From Syncephalastrum monosporum B8922 (lineage: Eukaryota > Mucoromycota > Mucoromycetes > Mucorales > Syncephalastraceae), in assembly GCA_000697355.1 (NCBI GenBank), contig JNEN01000858.1:1-64000 (forward strand): a stretch of 64,000 nt of DNA, read 5' to 3'. Shown here in pieces: positions 1 through 52,208 of this stretch (the stretch's first letter is position 1; the number at the start of each line of letters is the position of its first letter). Below the pieces are notes generated by a model. The model did no database searches and was not told the origin of the DNA. It was given only the letters and a program-made list of their open reading frames with translations. Both the position numbers and the translations under genes were made by a program.

Positions 1-61
1 GAAACTGAAACGACGAAGATACCAATAGCAGAAAAAATTGCGCAAGGCTACCAACAACTAC

Positions 62-2435
62 ATGGACCCCATTCAACTCGAGAACCGTCAAAGATATCAG
101 TTGCAGCTTGAGCGGTCGAACGAAAACTTGCAGAAAATAGAACAACGAATAGAAGAAATTGTTCAAGAAAAGGTAGAAGGCACATCTATCAATATGCATA
201 CATACATCTACGGTAGCTAATGAATTACTGAAAATGCAATGACATCAAGAAGGCTAGCACCGCCATAGCGGAAACGAAGACGAAGCAGAGCAAGGCCGCC
301 AAAAGGGCACAGAAAAAGAGAGCCAAGAAAGAGCGAAAAGCCATTGAGCAAAAGACAGAATCCAAGGGGAAGTCGCCAAAGGAGAAGGTAAATCATCAAA
401 CCTGCAATATTTTATCTATATCCTAAATAATAACGTTGCATTAACCAGGGTACCAGTATCGCGAGAACTGGCAACTGGGTGGCCTGATGAAGCACCTACT
501 GCTCAGTAAAGAAGGCCACGCTGCTGGACCTTCCTTCGCTAATGCCGCGGAAGCCTGGCTGCACGAGACGGAGCTCACGGCCGAGGAGCTGGATGCGGTT
601 GTCGGATTGTGGCGATTTTTCAAGCCCTACTTCCCAACAACCGCTGACAGATAAATCATTCTGTCTCGGCCAGTATGTGCCGTTTGTACGACAAGCAAAC
701 AAGATTCTGGATGCCATACACGCTTCAAAAAAGAGACACAAGCTAGTACCGATTCCTTCGTGTGGCGCCCTTAGCTCAATGACGCTGGACGCTCCAACTA
801 TATGGGGTATCATAGGCGGGGCGCACTCTGACTACATTCTGCATGGAAACGACAACAAGCCCATCACGAACCTACGCACTGCCCTTGAACAGAAGAGAAA
901 TATGTTCGCTGGAATTTTCGACTTGAACAAGATCGACAACATATGCGGGTTATACAGCTTGTCCTTTGCCAATGTCATCCAAGTGACTCCAAATTTGAAA
1001 GCTCGAATTACAGGCATTCGCAGAACACCACCGCGCCGTTCCATGTGGGAAGCCAGGAGAGCATATCGTCGTCAGGCAAACACCGCAAATCGTTATTTCG
1101 AAAAGGCGAACGAAGTACAACTACAAGATCTATTAAGCAAGATCAAAAAAAGCAAGGAAGCTGTCGACAAGAAGCTTTTGAATGAAAGTATATCCCAGTT
1201 TGATCAAGCAAAATCCCAACGCGATACAAAGGACTTTTCGATGGCCATTTACAGAGTCAAAAGGGAGCTCACAAGACGTGATCAAGAACAGAAAGACCGT
1301 AAAGGCAAAGGAAAGATGAAAGAAGTTAAAGTTGCAGACACGCCACCAGCTGGTCTATCACCAAGCCGACCATCACAGAAGGAGCACGGGTTGGAAGATT
1401 ACGTCGACATGATCGACCTGAGTGAGCTCAGGAACAAGAACGCCAAGTTTGGGCTGAGCGGAACCGATTATGGTTTATGTACATTGGCGACGTCGGTGAA
1501 CATCCCGACCGACCGAAATCAGCACGGTGGTTTACCACCAGCAAGAAAGGCCCACCTCCTGAAGACCAGCGCCAAGCAGCTGCACCATGAGTCCTTCACC
1601 GCGAGACACCTGCGAGTCATCAAGACTCAGAAGAGCTTTCATCCGTGCGTCTCTGCCGCCGAGAACGCTCTTTCAGCAGCAAGCTTGTCTGCCTGTCGAG
1701 ATGTCGCCGACTTGCTCAAAGCGCATGAGGTTTGTACTCAAATTAAGACTGTTGATTATGGCATTAACTTTAAAAAATATACATCAGATGCGCAAAGAGA
1801 TGTCTCCGCATTTGCGTTGGTTCTACAACAGTGCACGACTTGCGTCCCTCAATTACACGGCAGAGATAAAAAAGAAACGCGCATATCAGCGCTATGCCGC
1901 AGAGGAACGCAAGCTTGCAAAGAAGCACACAAATGCGAAGGCAATACCCATACGTTTCATTGGAAACAAAGGGACTGGTGTCGGCTCCACAATCAGAGGT
2001 CATCTTCGGTACGGCGGCAGGAAGATGCGGCAGTTCGAGGCCAGACACGCTGTCGTAGCCATTACCGACGAGCACCGAAGCTCACAGACTTGCAGCTGCT
2101 GTCTTCAGCCCATCATCCATCCTCATTACCGCCAAAAAGGCCAGAGCAAAGTGAATCTAGGCGTCTCTCGCTGCGTCAATGCAGAATGCGACCTTGTTAA
2201 GCAGGGTATGGGGACCCAGGGTCGTGACAAAACGGCAGCACAATGCATCGCTCTCGCTGGCGCCAGCAAAATATTCATTGGCGAAACCTTGCTGCCCTTC
2301 GACCAATACGCCACAGTAATGATCATCGGACAACATCAGTGGCATCGCTTCCCCCCTGCCCCATCTCTCCTTCTTTTCTCGCTTATAATGCACCCCAAAG
2401 CCCCATCCCATCCCATCCCATCCATTGCAAAATAA
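62..2435 (+). CDS. Fanzor (eukaryotic TnpB-like RNA-guided nuclease), N-terminal part frame-broken
   Basis: Fanzors are eukaryotic homologues of transposon TnpB; characterised ones are RNA-guided DNA endonucleases with a RuvC-like fold. The body is read at 542-1729 joined to 1788-2435 across a phase-0 58-nt intron (GTTTGT...ATCAG). The RuvC-I motif GTDYGLCTLATSV has its Asp codon at 1466-1468. After the intron come a basic stretch, IGNKGTGVGSTIRGH, then TDEHRSSQTCSCC (Glu codon 2070-2072, zinc knuckle) and a second Cys pair (CVNAEC). RuvC-III is GRDKTAAQCIALAG, Asp codon 2226-2228. The N-terminal segment (WQLGG..., LWRFFKPYFP, then YVPFVRQANKILD) is also Fanzor-like. Upstream Lys-rich exons at about 62-172 and 250-387 (introns 173-249 and 388-448) seem to belong to the gene, but the frame is lost at the 388-448 splice and again near 640-673. 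Start is uncertain: the left window edge, ATG 62, ATG 486 or ATG 542. The last 40 or so residues look non-homologous. Family is confident; activity is not. Confidence 0.85.
388..673 (+). other. Frame discontinuities in the Fanzor N-terminal coding region
   Basis: Coding-quality sequence at 451-650 is open in the frame of base 451 and reads YQYRENWQLGG through LWRFFKPYFPTTADR before a TAA at 652-654. The next conserved block (QYVPFVRQANK) is one frame further on, from about 671, and no GT-AG intron can join the two without deleting the FFKPYFP block. The preceding intron 388-448 (GTAAAT...AACCAG, 61 nt) also leaves the reading one base out of phase. Two such breaks suggest a decaying copy or a sequencing error. 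Translation could restart at the intact ATG at 542. Confidence 0.55.
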
Positions 2436-4771
2436 AAAGTTCTCAGCATCTACAAACAAGAAAACATGAGAATGATTAAGCCTCACACATAACAGGTCTC
2501 GCTTTATATCATTCACCGAATGGAAGTATAACCGTGCATCAACATTTGGCTTAATCTCGTGTATATTTATAAGTACGACAAGGTCCGTAGCGGTAGCCAC
2601 AATCCTCGAGTATTTTCTCTCTGTGTCAATGTGGGCCATCCTTGACAGACTACGACAAGTCGCTCCGCGTCATGGATTGATCCCTTTACCTTTGATAGAG
2701 TGATTCTGTGGCTGAAGTATGTTATTGTCTGGTTACCAGAAATGCGCCCATGCGGTATTGAGCAAGTGCAATGGACATGATTCCCGTTTGTATGAGACGA
2801 CGATTACATTGTACTTATTCTATATTTCCATATGTCACTATGGATAACATCAGCCGTCGATGGGCGATGTACTGTATATCTACAATATGTCGACATCGCC
2901 AGAGAGGTTTCATCTGATATGTAACAGGTTGCTACTCACGGAACTAGTCTTCTGTTATATATATCCTTTCCATCTTTGACATGTTCGGACCATTACACTC
3001 ATTCCGTACGGTGTATTTTTATTAAAATTGGTATGCCTGCAGGACGTATTGTGGTCTTGATCCCCTCTATTGATGATAGACACAATGGAAACAAATACAT
3101 AGGCCGCCTAAGCTAGCAATATGATGGCGACGCATGGGCTCCAGCAGTTCCCTCCCAAAGGCTGTCTATTATTATCAACTATTATGATGTTCCCCTACTA
3201 AGCAATGCAGAGGTTCGATTGTAGCCGATTCAGCACCTAATGCATCTCTTGACTTTGCGAATGTTGTCTGACGAGATATGAAGTCAAGAATGACTTTGAT
3301 ATCTGATGCCACTCCCGTGGAAAACGTCTGACATCAGCCCTTTTTCTTTAAAAAAAAAAGGCATTCTCTTTTGTGCCTCTTTTTCCCACTCGCAAATGTG
3401 ATACCTGAACAGGTCAATGTATACTTTGAAACGCGATAATAATTTTGACGTCGATCCCTATCAGTGTCCGCTTGTCTGCTTTCCTATCCCCATTGGTGTT
3501 CACTGAGTCAATGTTCTTGTCTCACAGTTGATCGAGGCCCATCTTATATAAAGTCCAGCTGGTCTCTCCCACGTCTGCTTTTCTTCTTCTTTTCTTTGTC
3601 CTTCTCAAAGTCATTTTCTCCGGCAAGTACATTTATACATAGAACTATGGGTATAATCTAACAGAGACAACATAGACGACACGAGGTCCCCTCAAGTCCC
3701 TCTGCCACCGGTTGCTCGTCCATGCACCGGTGTGCACGATAGTAAGTTGTCGCGTTAAAAATACAAGACATTGGACATCTTTAACATTGTTCCAACGTAT
3801 ACGTAGCTTGTTGTATTGCGTTTCTTCCCTTCTGTCTTCTCTCCCGTTTGCGTGTCTCTTCCTCTCTTCCGCTCGCGCCCTCCCATCCAGAGGTTTTTTT
3901 TTCCGCTTTTTTCCTCTGTCCGTAAGTGAATTGAACTGCATAAGAAACTGAGACATGACAACTGATACTTTTGATGTCAGGTCCGTTCCTTTCCCATTCC
4001 GTTCCTTTTGTCCTCCCTCCTTTTGTCCTCCTCCTCCGCCCTAGCCTACGGTAGAAGCCGGTAGTAGTTTAAACCTTTCATCATAGGCATATACCCAAAT
4101 GTCTCCAGCCCCACCCATCATGGTAAGTGACTCACACGGGATGAAATATCTTGAGACATGGGTTTTAACAAAAGGAATTAGACGCGTGCCCTCCACGGGC
4201 GCGTTAGTTAGATGAGGTGGCGGCCTGCCGCCTTGCGCGCGCAATAACGAACCTGGCTCTGCCGTAGGTATGTAGAAAGTGCACTTCAGTCTAACGACCA
4301 ACTGACTTTGGAATGAATCTCGATAGGCTAGTTTACAAATACGTACTTAATCGTATGCATATTCAAACAAAGTCTAATTTGTACCCAACACAAGTGCGTT
4401 GCATTTATCAAATAACCATTGGAGAGTAGGACAATACTATAGCAAGTTAGCAAGAGTTCACGATAACATGTCTATTAGTGTTCTGAGATTGCGTCTATAT
4501 CTGTTTCGGATTAGTAGAAAGACCTGCAAAGCCAAGGTTCCTGGTAGGTGTGAAACAATCACCGCAATGAACGACAGGATTAAAATCCTAAATGGAAAAG
4601 CCGATCCCATCTGATAGGTTCGTATTGTTTTACATATAGTGTGGTCAGCGTTCCTATAATATGAATACATACCATTTAGGTCATGAAAAGAAGTATCACT
4701 CGGTCGACTAACCAAAGATAGACAGCTGCACGCTTTTACTGATTAGCTAACTTCGTAAAGTGGCGTGATAT

Positions 4772-10611: not shown

Positions 10612-13600
10612 TTATTTGGTGCCTGAGCTACCATACTTGCCCTTCCACACCTCTTCCATCTTCTCGTCAATACGCGAGAACAGGTAAGCGGCGCCGTTCA
10701 TCTTGTGGCCGCCCTTGATATCAAAGGTGAAGGTGTCCGGGATGAGACGCAGCGGCGCGTTCAATTGCCGCGAAATGCTTTCCGCCGTGGCCGGCATGTA
10801 TGGATAAATCAAAGCCGACAGGAGGTAGATCAGGTTCACCGCCATATTGACCACCGCATCGCACTTGCTCCGCTGCTCCGTGAACAGCGTGTTGCTCACG
10901 TTTGAGTCCTGAAGATACAGGTTGCCGCGTGCCGAGATGGCCATCGCCACGGCCAAGCCCTGGCGCAGTTTAGTGTTTTCAAGGTTATCAATGTACTCCT
11001 GCAGCAGCTTATTGATATCGTTCGTGAGGTCCGCCTCGCTCTGGCCGGTCAAGTCCGCCTCAGGCACGACACCATCGTACTTGGCCACAGCAAACTTGAT
11101 GACGCGGTTGACAAAGTTGCCCAGGTTGTTGAGAAGCTCGCTGTTGTTCTTGGTAATGAACTCGTTCCAGGTGAACATCGAGTCGCTCGTCTCGGGACGC
11201 GACGAGAGGAGGTAGTAGCGCCAGACCGAGGGAGGAATACCGGTCTCTTCGGCGTTTGTGCCAAACACACCGACGTTGCGCGACTTGGAGAACTTGCCGC
11301 CTTCATAGTTGAGGTACTCGGTAGTGCTAATGTGATGCACCATGGTCCATGCCTCCTTGGTAGCAATTTGCGTGCCTGGGAAAATCACGGAGTGGAAGGG
11401 AACATTGTCTTTGCCCATAAACTGATAGAGCTTCACGTTGTCTGGGTTCTTCCACCACTTTTCCCAATCGGCGGTGTATCTCGCAGTGATGCTGGGGTAG
11501 CCGATGGGCGCGTCAAACCAGACGTAGAACACCTTGCTCTCGAAGCCAGGGAGGGGCACGGGCGTACCCCACTTGAGATCGCGAGTAATGCAGCGAGGGC
11601 GCAGGCCTTCCTTCAGCCACGACTGTGTAATGTGAACACCGTTGCTCGACCACTTGCCTAGTCTAGAATGAGTGATCTTATTGTTCCTGGCCTAATGATG
11701 TCTGTCTCACCTTCGGTGTTAACACGCGCATTGAAGGCGTCGATATCGGGCTGCAGACGATCCAAATCCAAGAACAGATGGCGCGAGTCCTTGGTGATCG
11801 GTGCAGTACCATCCAGCTTGCAGCGAGGATTGACAAGCTCAGTTGCGTTCAGCAGCTTACCGCAGGCGTCGCATTGATCACCACGTGCATCCTATACCGG
11901 AAAAAGCAAACAAGACATCGTCAGATAAGAAGGGGTTCATTGCGGGGGCCCAGGGGTGTACAAAACGTCTGTGTCGTACCTCGTAATTGCACAATGGGCA
12001 CGTGCCCTCCACATATCTATCCGCCAAAAATCTAAAATAATATTTTTTTGCGCATCAGCCATATCCTCATGCTCCCATATCGGATGTTATCTAATTAATG
12101 ATTATAGAAACAAAAATAACATACCTTTGACACTTTTCACAAAAGAGCTGGGTCATGACATTTTCAGAGGTGTAACCATTAGCATGGACCTTGTTGAAGA
12201 TATCTTGGGAAATCTTGGTTTGCTCCGGGGTGCTGGTACGGCCAAAGTGGTCAAAGGAGAGGTCGAACCACTCGTACACCTTTGCATGGATAGCGCTGTA
12301 CTTGTCACACAAAGCCTGGCAAGAGACACCCTCTTCCAGAGCTTTGGTTTCTGTCGCAGTGCCATATTCGTCTGTACCGCAAATCAACAGGGTGTTGTAG
12401 CCCCGAGCACGGCAGTATCTAAAGAAGGGTAAGTATGGTTTTTCGCGCCCGGGGGGAGGGGCTCTTATCAAGGGTTCTTGTCTCACCTAGCGAAACAGTC
12501 TGCACTAAGTGTGGAGCCGATAATGTTGCCCAAATGGGGAATGTTGTTGACGTAAGGAAGGGCCGAGGTGATCAAGACGTTACGATGACCGTCCTTGGGC
12601 AGCCTAGCAAGAAATAAAGAAAGGATTGAAAAAAAAGTCAGCTCCTGCGAAACTCTAATGAAATGGCAGTAATAACACAACTGCGGCTAGGCCAGCCTCT
12701 TACACTTTTTCTTCGCCCCGCTTGGGCATGAACACCTGCTCATTCAATTTCTGGGTAGCGGGGTCAAGATCAGCAAGCACGTTCGCCTTGGGCCCCGTGC
12801 TCTTCTTGTCCTGAGCACCCAGCTGCTTCTTCTTGGCAGCCTTGGAGATCTTTTTTTTTTTTTAAAAATATACCATGTGTTAGAAACGCGTGCTTCATCC
12901 ACAATGAAACGTATCCTCAGGATAGGTACCTGCTGATCAATCGATTCGAGGGCAGCAGCGGTGTTCTTGTTCTCCTGAAGGGTCTTGAACCAGGCCGCAA
13001 GAGTAGGGTATTTAGCGACATCGGAGGATGCGACCAAGACATCATAAAGGCTGGCGAAATAGATGACATCGACCGCAGTCAACTAAATTGAAACCAGATA
13101 GATTGTATTGGTAAGCAAAACCACCACCCCCTTTTTTTTTTGAAGAATGAAGTGAGCCTATCTAAATATCAAAATACCTTGTCCGATGGCTTTTGCTGAG
13201 CCGCGAGCACCTTCTCAGCCGCGTCCAGGGCCTCGGAGATCTTCTTCTGGGCGACCAAGGGCGCAACCAGCGCTTCCTCCTTCTCTATCGCCGCACTTTC
13301 TTTGAGCGCCGCATCGGATCCGTCGAAACCGGAGCCGACCAGGTACCTACAAGGGGTGCGGGTGTGAAGAACAAGGAAATAAGAGAAAGGTGCGGGGGGT
13401 GAGCAGGGATGCATATATGCACGTGCCGTTTTATCGGCTCTTTGCTTGTTTCTTACTTTACAGCCGCGTTGGCATCTGTCAAAAGGAGATCCTTGTTGAC
13501 AATGAGCGAGACGAGGTCGCCTGGCTGCTGGTTGACCTTGGCATCGGAGACGATGCCGGCCAGCACCAGCTTGAAGGCGTTGATATAGGGCTTCGTGCCG

Positions 13601-23591: not shown

Positions 23592-24248
23592 ATGCAACGA
23601 CGACAGGCCGGCTTGCTGGCTCTTTTGGTCATTGTGTGCGCCCTCTTCATGGGCCTCCAGACTGTGAAAGCAGCGGAAGACAAAGAAGCCTATGGCACCG
23701 GTATGTAGCACGTCTACGTGATAACGCGTGATAAGAGTGGGGCGGGGGGGCGGTGGACTTTGGCATGCGCGTAGTGTGTAGGATGGCTCTCAAGAACACC
23801 AGTCCACTCACAGCTGTTTCTTTCTTTTTTCTCTCTCTTGTAGTGATTGGTATTGATTTGGGTACCACCTACTCGTGTGTGGGTGTGCAAAAGAATGGAC
23901 GCGTGGAGATTATTGCCAACGACCAAGGTCATCGCATCACGCCCTCGTACGTGGCTTTCACGGATGAGGAGCGTCTGATCGGTGATGCTGCCAAGAACCA
24001 GTACGCTGCCAACCCTACCCGCACTGTCTTTGACGCCAAGCGTCTGATTGGCCGTCGCTATAACGACAAGGACGTCCAGGCCGACAAGAAGCACTTCCCC
24101 TTCAAGCTCGTCAACAAGAACGGCCTGCCCAACATCCAGGTCGACGTCAAGGGCTCCGACCGCACCTTCACCCCCGAGGAGATCTCCGGTATGGTCCTGA
24201 CCAAGATGAAGGAGACCGCTGAGGCCTACCTCGGCAAGCCCGTCACCC

Positions 24249-24283
<35 letters not shown>

Positions 24284-25792
24284 GCCCAGCGTCAGGCCAC
24301 CAAGGACGCCGGCACCATCGCCGGTCTGAACATTCTCCGCATCATCAACGAGCCCACCGCGGCTGCGATTGCCTACGGTCTGGACAAGTCCGGCGGCGAG
24401 CGCAACGTCCTCGTCTATGACTTGGGTGGTGGTACCTTTGATGTGTCGCTGCTCTCCATCGAGGACGATATCTTTGAGGTCTTGGCCACCGCCGGTGACA
24501 CCCACTTGGGTGGTGAGGACTTTGACTCGCGCGTCATGGACCACTTCATCAAGCTCTGGAAGCGCAAGAACGACGGCGAGGACATCACCAAGGACCTCAA
24601 GACCATGGGCAAGCTCAAGCGCGAAGTCGAGAAGGCCAAGCGTGCGCTCTCCTCCCAGATGTCCGTTCGCATCGAGATCGAGTCCTTCCACAAGGGCAAG
24701 GACTTCTCCGAGACCCTGACCCGTGCCAAGTTCGAGGAGCTCAACAGCGACCTCTTCCGCAAGACCCTCAAGCCTGTCGAGCAGGTCCTCAAGGACGCCG
24801 GTGTCACCAAGGACCAGGTCGATGACATCGTCCTCGTCGGTGGCTCCACCCGTATCCCCAAGGTCCAGAAGCTCCTCGAGGACTTCTTCAACGGCAAGAA
24901 GGCCTCCAAGGGCATCAACCCCGATGAGGCTGTCGCTTATGGTGCTGCCGTCCAGGGTGGTATCCTCTCTGGTGAGGAGGGCTCCAACAAGGTCCTCCTT
25001 CTCGATGTCAACCCCCTGACTCTGGGTATTGAGGTAAGCAAAACGATACGCATGTGTGTCTTGTGTGTCAAGAGACGTGTTGCTCATTCGGATGGATGGA
25101 ATTAGACGACCGGTGGTGTCATGACCAAGCTGATTCCTCGCAACACTGTCATCCCCACCAAGAAGTCCCAGATCTTCTCCACCGCGGCCGACAACCAGCC
25201 CACCGTCCTGATCCAGGTCTTTGAGGGTGAGCGTGCCATGACCAAGGACAACAACCAGCTCGGCAAGTTCGAGCTGAGCGGCATCGCCCCTGCCCCGCGT
25301 GGTGTGCCCCAGATCGAGGTCTCGTTCGAGGTCGATGCCAACGGTATCCTCAAGGTCTCGGCCGCCGACAAGGCGTCCGGCAAGGCCGAGTCGATCACGA
25401 TCACCAACGATAAGGGCCGCTTGAGCCAGGAGGACATTGACCGCATGGTCAAGGAAGCCGAGGAGTTTGCCGAGGAAGACAAGGCCGTCCGCGAGCGCAC
25501 CGAGTCCAAGAACCAGCTCGAGAACTACATCTACACCCTGAAGAGCCAGCTCTCGGATGACAGCGGCGCGCTCTCCAAGATTGACGAGGACGACCGTGAG
25601 GTGATCGAGGAGGCCATCCGCGAGAAGCTGGACTGGCTCGACGAGAATGCGCAGGCCGCCAAGGAGGACTTTGACGAGAAGCGCGAGGAGCTCGAGTCTG
25701 TTGTGAACCCCATCACTTCCAAGCTGTACGCCGACGGCGCAGCGGGTGCCTCCGAGGACGATGAGCCTCTGAGAGACCACGATGAACTGTAA
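23592..25792 (+). CDS. KAR2: ER-lumenal Hsp70 chaperone BiP
   Basis: Exons 23592-23700, 23844-25033 and 25106-25792 give 661 residues. The signal peptide is [20 protein letters not shown] with cleavage near VKAAED. The Hsp70 ATPase domain starts at [15 protein letters not shown], with [12 protein letters not shown] and [14 protein letters not shown]. The substrate-binding domain and lid follow, and the C-terminus is DHDEL, an ER-retrieval signal. BiP folds and translocates secretory proteins and restrains the UPR sensor Ire1. The second intron sits inside the linker region after NPLTLGIE. Codon use is strongly GC3-biased compared with neighbours, as for a highly expressed gene. A UPRE-like site lies upstream. 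Confidence 0.98.
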
Positions 25793-49481: not shown

Positions 49482-51662
49482 TTACATGCGCTCGAGCGGG
49501 TCCAAGTTGAGGAGGCGCATTGCGTTGCCCAGCGTGACGCGGGCGGACCAGTACATCAGCAGACGGGCCTCGGCCACAGCAGGCTCGGCACCGCGGACCC
49601 AGAGTTGGTCAAAGACACCGGAGATGTCGTGGGCGAGCTTGAAGGCGTAGGTGACGACGTTGCAGGGCTCGCAGCCGTTGAGGATGCTCTTCACCAGGTC
49701 GGGATATTGAGCAATGGTGCGGCAAATGTCGATGGCACCGGGTTCAGTCAGGAGCGACAGATCGGCATTGTGGTTGACTTGGAGGCCAGACTTGCGCTCA
49801 ATCGAGGCCAGACGGGCGTGGGCGTACTGGATGTACGGGCCGGTGTCACCCTCGAAGCTGAACATGCGGTTACGGTCAAACTCGTAGTTTTTGATACGAC
49901 GAGCCGAATTGTCCTGGATCTTGACAGCCGACAGACCAATCTCGTCCGCGACCTTTTCAGGCTCCTCAACCTCGGCGTATTTCTTTTCGTTCTTGCGCAT
50001 CACCTCGTGCATCACGTCACGGGCCTCGTCGAGGATATCCTCCAGGAAGACGACAGTGCCCTTACGGGTGGACATGCCCTGGACCAGACCAAAGTTGATG
50101 TGCTCGACCTTATCGGCAAAGGGAGCCTTCATGAGCTCGAGCGTCTTGAAGAGTTGCTTCATGTGCAGATCCTGCTGCGACGCAATGACGTAGACCATCT
50201 TGTCAAAGTTGTACTTTTCGTAACGCTCGATGGCGCCACCGATATCACGGGTCAGATACAAGGTGGTGCCGTCACGCTTCTGCACCACAGTCTTGCCCAG
50301 CTTGTACTTTTCAAGGTCAATCACCTTGGCACCATCCGAGTCCTCGATCAGACCATCCTTCTCGAGCTGCTCCATCGCACGCTGCATGCCGTCGCCGACC
50401 TGCGACTCACCCCAATAGACGTCAAAGTGGATGTTCAGACGGCCATAAACTTCTCTGTACTTGACAATGGAAAGGTCACGGAAGCGGCGCCAGAGGGACA
50501 ATGCGCTCTCGTCGCCATCCTCCATCTTCTTAAAGTAGGCACGCGCTTCATCATGAATGGACGGCTCCTCCTCGGCCTGGCGGTTCACAGCAACGTAGAC
50601 GTCGTACAGATGCTTAATGGGGTCCGCCAAAAGCTTCTGCTCGTCACCGAAGCGGTTGTAGCCGACAGCAAGCAGACCTGCACAAGTTCTGTTATCAGCA
50701 CCTGCTCTACTCAATGTCCCCTCCTACTTACCATACTGCTTGCCCCAGTCACCGAGGTAGTTCATGGCAATGACATTCCAGCCGTTGGCCTCGTAGGCGT
50801 TACGGATGAACGAACCGATGATAGTCGAACGCAAATGACCGGCGTGGAAGGGTTTGGCAATGTTGGGGGAGGAGAACTCGACGATGACGGTCTTTCCCTC
50901 GCCGTTCTTGTTGCCACCATACTTTGTGTCGTACTTGGAGACCATGTTGAGGGTGCGGCGGATCAGGATATCCGGGTTGATGCGGAAGTTGAGGAAGGGG
51001 CCAATGGCCTTGGCCTCGGTAACGTGGTCGTTGGGCTTGAAGGCCTTGGCCCACTCAGCCGCCAACGCAGCCGGGTTGCCCTTGACACGCAGACGGGGCA
51101 GAGCCACCGCGTAGTCACCGTGCTCGAGCGAGCGGGGCAGGTCGATCGCAGCGTAGACGGTCGCAGCAGGAATATCAGCAATCGACGCAAGCTGAGTCGC
51201 AATCAGGTTCTTGAAGCAATCGGCGACATTGTACGCAGGCGAGGAGCCCTCGACATCAGGAATCGACTCGACCGCAGGCAGGCTGGGCTGGGCCGCCAAG
51301 GCCTCGGCCAGTGCAACGGCGTCCGCGCTGGGCGCACTGCTCGACTGACCGTCCCAGGCCAGAGCAGCAATGAGCGCAGACTGAGACTGGAGTTTCTCGC
51401 CGCTCAGGACACGGTCCAGAAGGTGGGCCTCGGCTTGCGCTTCGGGCAGCTGCTCGTCCAGGAGCTGCTGCGACCGGATAAGGTAACGGGCCACGGACGC
51501 TGTGCCGGTGATGACTGTTTTGTCGTCCACCGTCAAGGCAGGCTCAGCGGCATCGGCCTGAGGGACCACCTTAACAGAGCTCTTGAGATTGGCGTTGCCC
51601 GCAATAAGAGCCAAAAGGCTGTACGGAATGGCTTGCGTGGGTGCTTTCAGCTCCATGACCAT
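49482..51662 (-). CDS. RRS1: Arginyl-tRNA synthetase, cytosolic
   Basis: Exons 51662-50732 and 50677-49482 (54-nt intron) give 708 residues. The class I HIGH motif is in [14 protein letters not shown] and the KMSK-like loop is [16 protein letters not shown], as in canonical ArgRS. The N-terminal tRNA-binding Add1-like domain covers [20 protein letters not shown], and before it lies an Ala-rich GST-like extension of about 150 residues ([20 protein letters not shown]), suggesting docking to other translation factors. The C-terminal DALR domain ends [13 protein letters not shown]. The start could be ATG 51660-51662 or 51654-51656. Strong GC3 bias fits high expression. Convergent with AP-2 alpha. 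Confidence 0.97.
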
Positions 51663-52208
51663 GAATAAAGAAAATGGTCCGCCCCCAAGATTTTTTTAAC
51701 GTCAATGGAAAAATGAGTCAGATTCACACAAGCCACCCCTCGTGTCGCCAATTCATGCAAAACCACGATACCATTTTCAGGTACACCTTCCCCCCAATGC
51801 TTGTATGATTCATACACATCTATGGACAGATAGCCATACCCAAGGATCAAAATGTAGCGTATGTCAGTTCCATATACAGGGTATCATGTGTCACGTGACC
51901 ATGGACGTCCAGTTCACTGGTGCTTTTGTAGAACCTCCAGATCTAGAAAAAAGGAGCGAGGGTGAAGAAAGGGGGGGGGGAGGCGCAGGATCCGTATTCA
52001 CTTTGCTTGGATATACCAAACAAAAAAAACTGCGTCTTAATAAGGGGGAGTGTCTGGCCGTCAGAGATGGATGCAGGGGGCAAAGTATGAAGACGGGCGC
52101 GGAGCGAACTGGTGACGATCGCCTACACATTGTATAAGTAACGATGTTTCCAGAGTGCCAGGTGCCCACTGCTTTTTTGTTTTTTTTTTATTAAACCATA
52201 TCGAAACG
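51663..52208. other. Divergent intergenic region of ArgRS and the secreted peptide gene
   Basis: Holds both promoters. A G-run (51971-51980) and a T-run just upstream of the peptide start are the only notable features. Confidence 0.55.

Follow-up and report, generated by a model that had tools for sequence, protein, structure and literature searches.

A decayed Fanzor1-type mobile element of Syncephalastrum monosporum with a conserved noncoding unit at its right end, a putative omegaRNA gene

Fanzor proteins are recognized by the motif D-X(125,275)-[TS][TS]-X-X-C4 zinc finger-X(5,50)-RD, as defined by Bao and Jurka in 2013 in the available part of their account (PMC3627910). According to the accessible text of another report (PMC10711439), an alternative RuvC-II Glu lies six residues ahead of the first Cys, and a DPG tripeptide at RuvC-I is near exclusive, and so not strictly defining, in Fanzors. 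In Spizellomyces punctatus, the Spu-1 family comprises 42 Fanzor loci and 134 ghost loci with a common right-end omegaRNA (PMC10432273, in the portion available). The locus described here lies at the start of the window, i.e., the 64,000-nucleotide stretch of Syncephalastrum monosporum B8922 DNA that was analysed, which begins at the edge of contig C91 and covers its first 64 kb. The best explanation of the locus as a whole, with a probability of roughly two in three, is a decayed element that carries a Fanzor1-type gene, the RNA of which would be made from positions 3540-4334 with a guide taken from the flank, and of which the short Fanzor-less copies would be ghosts served in trans.

The original prediction placed a Fanzor nuclease gene at 62-2435, and such a gene is indeed present. 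The plus strand of the window contains GTDYGLCTLATSV, TDEHRSSQTCSCC and GRDKTAAQC, joined across a clean 58-nt GT-AG intron at 1730-1787; the proposed RuvC-I, zinc-knuckle and RuvC-III motifs are real, and after splicing the reading frame conforms to the Fanzor motif as published. The gene, which is of Fanzor1 type, comprises four or more exons, with a read-through of approx. 1,090 residues (1,092 as used); the introns of 77, 61 and 58 nt (GT-AG) were called from sequence and frame, with inferred borders. In particular, the plus strand carries the 3' end of the first coding exon (1-172), putative intron A (173-249, GT..AG, 77 nt), a lysine-rich second coding exon (250-387), putative intron B (388-448, GT..AG, 61 nt), a third coding exon with the central region and RuvC-I, reading GTDYG (449-1729), intron C (1730-1787, GTTTGT..ACATCAG), the borders of which are kept in the C78 copy despite a different intron body, and a fourth coding exon with the alternative Glu, the C4 zinc finger and RuvC-III (1788-2435), in which the canonical RuvC-II Glu position is lost. 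Position 62 is not the start of the gene, as the rest of the first exon lies off the contig. Contig C186 terminates in an open frame of 459 codons counted from its ATG, and its last 256 bases are identical to the first 256 bases of the window at 255 positions, so the two contigs may be abutting neighbours, with approx. 390 of the 459 codons falling upstream of the window. A Pfam search with the long N-terminal part returned no family at the cut-off.

Assignment of the gene to the Fanzors begins with the motif. In the read-through, 184 residues separate the RuvC-I Asp from the SS pair; the C4 finger and RD follow, and the alternative Glu precedes the first Cys by six residues, in agreement with the Fanzor definition. 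The zinc-finger motif stands as originally reported; its spacing does not, since the sequence reads E-x2-SS and not E-x3-SS. Across all six frames of the window, a single match to the zinc-finger/RD half was found, and 40 base-shuffled windows gave none. At RuvC-I, DPG is not found: all seven clade segments spanning the motif (C91, C167, C78, C79, C80 and, twice, C92) read GTDYG, and the two other Fanzors of the genome in which RuvC-I was read both have DPG. The Asp, Glu and Asp residues of the expected catalytic triad are present; the single-sequence fold of exon 4 alone (mean pLDDT 43.9) is too poor for use.

Profile searches, proposed as a check with the original prediction, settle it only in part. 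The window copy scores 13.2 bits against the TNB domain PF07282, for which the cut-off is 26.3, and is not among the 26 matches to this domain in the genome (25 above the cut-off). The 27.5-Mb genome thereby harbours 26 loci of Fanzor/TnpB type in addition to the DYG clade. Within this genome, exon 4 of the window copy matches Fanzor-like segments at C132:178.6k (E 1.2e-10) and at C122, ~205.7-205.8k (E 2.4e-9); the latter belongs to a DPG-type protein and scores 24.9 bits on PF07282. A profile of nine relatives, which takes in both of these bridging segments, has as its top five matches in the PDB two Cas12f proteins (E 0.002), SpuFz1 (0.02), TnpB (0.1) and PpFz1 (0.11). Moreover, all nine relatives match PF07282 at E<=1 (best, 2.5e-5), and hhalign relates them to the canonical Fanzor1 proteins of the genome with a probability of 90.9. 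Without the two bridging relatives, the hhalign probability falls to 34.9 (E 0.00041), and a five-member profile of closer relatives (lacking C132 and C122b) retrieves no Fanzor, TnpB or Cas12f chain from the PDB up to E 10. The tie between the clade and Fanzor thus runs mainly through the motif and the bridging relatives. In a phmmer search of the PDB, the read-through gave a single match, to a designed protein (E 9.5), and protein database searches yielded no relatives at E<=0.001 among the approx. 8,000 word-sharing candidates scored in each.

The subthreshold Pfam score of the single copy, the failure of the closer-relatives profile to retrieve a Fanzor chain and the matchless database searches would suit a zinc-ribbon protein outside the Fanzors that resembles them by chance; nevertheless, the spacing of the motif, the bridging relatives and the selection acting on the motif-bearing exon (see below) make such a coincidence very improbable. 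On its sequence, the window gene is filed as a divergent Fanzor1-type protein, in keeping with the nuclease type originally named. Elsewhere in the genome, an open frame of 1,137 aa at the locus C159:73510-73902 (L020) resembles part of the central Fanzor exon (28% identity) but carries a long, acidic, low-complexity tail.

The disrupted frame that had been noticed is confirmed by comparison of the window copy with its siblings on C167, C78, C79, C42 and C186. An in-frame stop occurs near base 26 (absent in C167, C186, C78 and C42), the stretch near 470-640 of the third exon is out of frame, and the stop that the siblings have near 2340 is lost, so that the frame reads on to 2435. The copy had been called decaying or host-adapted: it is decayed, and host adaptation finds no support, as the five sibling loci are each broken or incomplete in a different way (C167, C78, C79 and C42 have breaks or truncations at other places, and C186 is cut off by the end of its contig). 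In the catalytic exon, comparison of C91 with C78 over 170 codons gives a dN of 0.118 and a dS of 1.46 (near saturation), i.e., a dN/dS of 0.08, and the ratios for C91 against C167, C79 and C42 are 0.23, 0.31 and 0.33, each based on a small number of changes. Constraint is weaker in the central exon, with ratios of 0.60 (C167), 0.30 (C78, in which one stop codon was encountered), 0.39 (C79) and 0.52 (C42). These values indicate that the catalytic exon is under purifying selection between lineages. Since this exon is constrained between lineages and the window copy is decayed, the lineage was kept by selection and the window copy died later. The C78 locus (L042/L071, C78:309-314k) is a chimera, the 5' part of which is ~94% like C167 and the 3' coding part ~77%, which suggests recombination between lineages.

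DNA similarity reaches from the contig edge to the right side of the locus in C167, C79 and many shorter copies. Matches that extend to the right side mostly end at window positions 4331-4337 (47 matches listed; 40 of 189 candidates scored). The C167 copy runs from ~224,770 to 217,924, some 6.85 kb, and C186 together with the window would make an element of ~7.0 kb. The best explanation is that window positions 1-4334 are the 3' part, ~4.3 of ~7 kb, of a mobile element. Alignment of flanks, as originally advised, thus places the right end, which reads GGCTAGTT and is followed by T in most subfamily-1 copies; in a second subfamily, A follows CTAGTT in all 25 right ends read. The same approach leaves the left end blurred: it reads TCTATTAAAA, and its exact base is uncertain because simple TCTA/TTCTAC repeats precede it in most copies (L079-L095). 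These repeats may reflect either an insertion preference or a growing end. Neither a terminal inverted repeat nor a target duplication was seen by eye in copies with both ends in view. A retroposon, suggested by the simple-repeat left end, was considered and set aside, as no target duplication was seen by eye.

The element is numerous, above all in its right part. Patterns allowing up to three mismatches, each paired with a reversed-pattern control that gave 0 places, found the right end of subfamily 1 at 28 places, that of subfamily 2 at 129, a conserved core within the right part at 157, and the left end at 18, the last pattern possibly fitting some subfamilies only. Pairing of cores with ends by position is partial, among the ~100 places listed each for subfamily-2 ends and for the core. 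Searches with the exons listed 13 and 17 places compared with 157 for the core, and most core copies are therefore without this gene.

To the right of the element, the long frames at 5588-64000 look like ordinary host genes. They include an ArgRS gene at 49482-51695 (minus strand) and, by eye, an HSP70-like gene at 23735-25105 (plus strand) and a MetRS-like gene at 10612-11691 (minus strand). The nearest named matches of the ArgRS are from Mucorales (80% Apophysomyces, 78% Rhizopus), as befits the fungal host originally proposed. No tRNA was found.

The sequence that Fanzor-less copies carry, in whole or in part, is an outward-reading, conserved noncoding unit at 3540-4334 (plus strand), which starts 1.1 kb past the nuclease gene and ends at the element border. 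In its features it resembles a transcript that is read outward: it has a TATA-like start in the long copies and a pyrimidine-rich stretch. Its most conserved core (3656-3760) contains a possible 7-bp hairpin, CACCGGT/ACCGGTG, seen by eye. Three intron-like segments with GTAAG-type starts and AG ends are recognizable at 3742-3806, 3922-3980 and 4123-4181, and the 3' terminal segment of the element, at 4182-4334, ends in GGCTAGTTT and is proposed as a guide scaffold beside a flanking guide; all lie on the plus strand. Examined as coding sequence, the unit revealed no conserved spliced frame by eye among the aligned rows listed.

A profile of 20 core copies also matches other Fanzor loci, namely C125 (L033/L035) and C122 (L034), in both cases downstream of the gene and on the same strand; C125 was among the rows of the profile and C122 was not. 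In C122, the unit is recognizable up to intron-like segment 2, past which similarity fades, and the next 800 bases read contain no right end. Neither the eight best PF07282 loci (L001-L008, with at most ~1.5 kb of flank each) nor the loci of several other Fanzor relatives yielded the core. The C122 locus (L034, C122:204248-207625, minus strand) encodes a diverged DPG Fanzor with two open exons (at least 378 and 241 aa). The conserved core lies behind it, and this Fanzor is a candidate intact nuclease of a core-linked lineage.

Right ends of the second subfamily (C187, C158, C154, C177) are closer to the C125 end than to that of the window. In particular, the subfamily-2 majority sequence of the last segment agrees with C125 at 110 of 143 positions and that of subfamily 1 at 77 of 137. 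The two majority sequences are identical at 70/85 positions of the core and at 44/63, 28/52 and 16/42 positions of intron-like segments 1-3; for the stretches that separate and follow these segments, the figures are 86/114, 64/143 and 87/144. The borders used are off by 1-4 bases at the first and third introns, and the third is misaligned, which makes the figures near it rough. Intron-like segment 2 is absent in C177 and C125, and a donor is altered in C158.

On the hypothesis favoured here, 3540-4334 would be an omegaRNA gene, and the Fanzor-less copies would be ghosts as in Spizellomyces. The outward reading of the unit fits a guide taken from the flank. Evidence from RNA structure speaks rather against this reading. 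In subfamily 2, a hairpin has two pairs changed on both sides, and its score was reached by none of 500 shuffles; when slid by 2 bases, however, it scores almost the same (0.300 vs 0.313). In subfamily 1, the hairpin can be drawn only with a bulge, and an alignment of the two subfamilies was therefore left out of the pair counts. The last 154 nt have an ordinary folding energy (z -0.78, with 43 of 200 shuffles as good), and an Rfam search of 2300-4500 returned two matches, both far under the family cut-offs.

The intron reading of the unit was noticed by eye, after the fact. In subfamily 1, the donor and acceptor dinucleotides are kept in 18/21 and 20/21, 19/23 and 21/23, and 22/26 and 24/26 cases; this is no excess of conservation, as 9-25 of 45 or 51 interior dinucleotides are at least as well kept as each of them. 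The word "intron" is absent from the main text of the three Fanzor papers of 2023-2024 that were consulted, and PMC11423790 has two words in "splic" and PMC10432273 one, as far as the available text of each goes. A search of the literature for Fanzor together with spliced and guide RNA gave nothing on the topic by title among the papers listed, which is not proof of absence in print.

Some of these features would also suit a unit that yields no guide RNA at all. The TATA-like start of the long copies, the pyrimidine-rich start, the three GTAAG-type intron-like segments and the direction of reading, out of the element, might mark a host promoter and leader that the element has captured, or a leader for its own gene that is read across the joint of a circular intermediate. 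Helitrons are known to capture pieces of genes. However, the core is conserved at 157 places and beside diverged Fanzors, no conserved spliced frame was seen by eye, and several of the aligned copies lack the small ATG at 4099; this explanation has some appeal but is, on the whole, doubtful.

The original prediction had placed the omegaRNA nearer the gene, at 2200-3000. This stretch is unmatched by the short Fanzor-less copies (only fragment C164 matches, from 2908 on); what these copies have in common is instead 3540-4334, the core of which also follows diverged Fanzors. An omegaRNA directly after the stop codon, at 2300-3450, was likewise rejected, as the stretch is hardly common to Fanzor-less copies, and all that speaks for it is how little the window and two long copies diverge there.

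That low divergence (2450-3450; 2.4% from C167 and 1.4% from C79) has a place in a further explanation, in which the element is Helitron-like and the 3' unit no more than the end that its transposase recognizes; the Fanzor gene would be a passenger, and the omegaRNA would lie just after the stop codon or have been lost. Helitrons are characterized by the lack of an inverted repeat and of a target duplication, a 5'-TC, a 3' hairpin followed by CTRR, and an A|T target. The first two of these characters agree with the copies that have both ends in view, as judged by eye. CTAG occurs near the right end, but the base that follows the end differs between the subfamilies (A in subfamily 2, mostly T in subfamily 1), and a hairpin just before CTAG is clear in subfamily 2 only. 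A RepHel-type Helitron gene exists in the genome (C72:7959-8498, L072, with a 1,075-aa open frame within the locus), and the excess of 157 right ends over 18 left ends resembles that of the Chlamydomonas Helitron2 Fanzors, in the available part of their description (PMC3627910). However, ~790 bases are long for an end, the block with the highest conservation sits ~570 bases inward, and the RepHel matches are all more than 10 kb from right ends and cores, among the ~100 places listed for each. A mere transposase recognition end is thus considered unlikely, although it should be kept in mind.

If the favoured reading, a guide-RNA unit at the right end, is correct, the system may work as follows in intact relatives of the window copy. 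RNA would be made from the outward-reading unit, ending at the element border, and its guide would be taken from the flanking host DNA. The nuclease would bind this omegaRNA and cut guide-matched DNA with a RuvC site composed of the Asp of DYG, the alternative Glu and the Asp of GRD. By cutting empty sites, it would allow repair to restore the element, which would thus persist after excision. The short Fanzor-less copies would be ghost elements that such a nuclease serves in trans.

A bolder version can be formulated, in which the DYG nucleases and up to ~157 dispersed guide-RNA genes form a split Fanzor system. Each guide-RNA gene would have its own promoter, be spliced by the host and take its guide from its own insertion site, and the two right-end subfamilies would track two nuclease lineages (the window type and the C125 type) as coevolving cognate sets. 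It is a speculative extension and judged improbable in this full form. The new points, if true, would be an RNA made at a distance from the nuclease gene, possibly spliced and with a promoter of its own, together with the DYG site and the cognate sets. Should 3540-4334 prove to be a guide gene, the RNAs that guide Fanzors can come from spliced genes that stand on their own at some distance from the nuclease, and are missed by searches limited to the surroundings of its stop codon. The Fanzor-less copies, with their differing flanks, would make possible a direct test of Fanzor cutting in trans at empty insertion sites. Moreover, the DYG clade widens the known range of Fanzor active sites.

Three described groups, as presented in the available parts of the papers that report them, help to place the window element. 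The Chlamydomonas Fanzor1 elements CRe-1, CRe-2 and CRe-3, which reside in Helitron2, likewise have far more right ends than left ends (PMC3627910); they differ in their hairpins at both ends, short asymmetric repeats and, often, target duplications, which were not seen in the window element. The Mucorales Fanzor1 proteins (those of the MCi, ROr and PBl elements and PpFz1) come from the same order of hosts, combine RuvC with a C4 zinc finger, are carried by mixed types of transposable elements and represent more than one Fanzor family per genome (PMC3627910; PMC11423790). The window element departs from them in having DYG in place of the usual DPG, a long N-terminal part, no inverted repeats seen and a distant noncoding 3' unit. 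The position of this unit, 1.1 kb past the gene, is also unlike that of published omegaRNAs as far as these are described. Spu-1, the family of SpuFz1, has its own 30-nt inverted repeats, whereas none were seen in the window element, and an RNA of 88-90 nt just downstream of the gene, in contrast to the 790-base unit found here. In both families, however, few copies carry a Fanzor gene, many are Fanzor-less, and all of these have a right end in common (PMC10432273).
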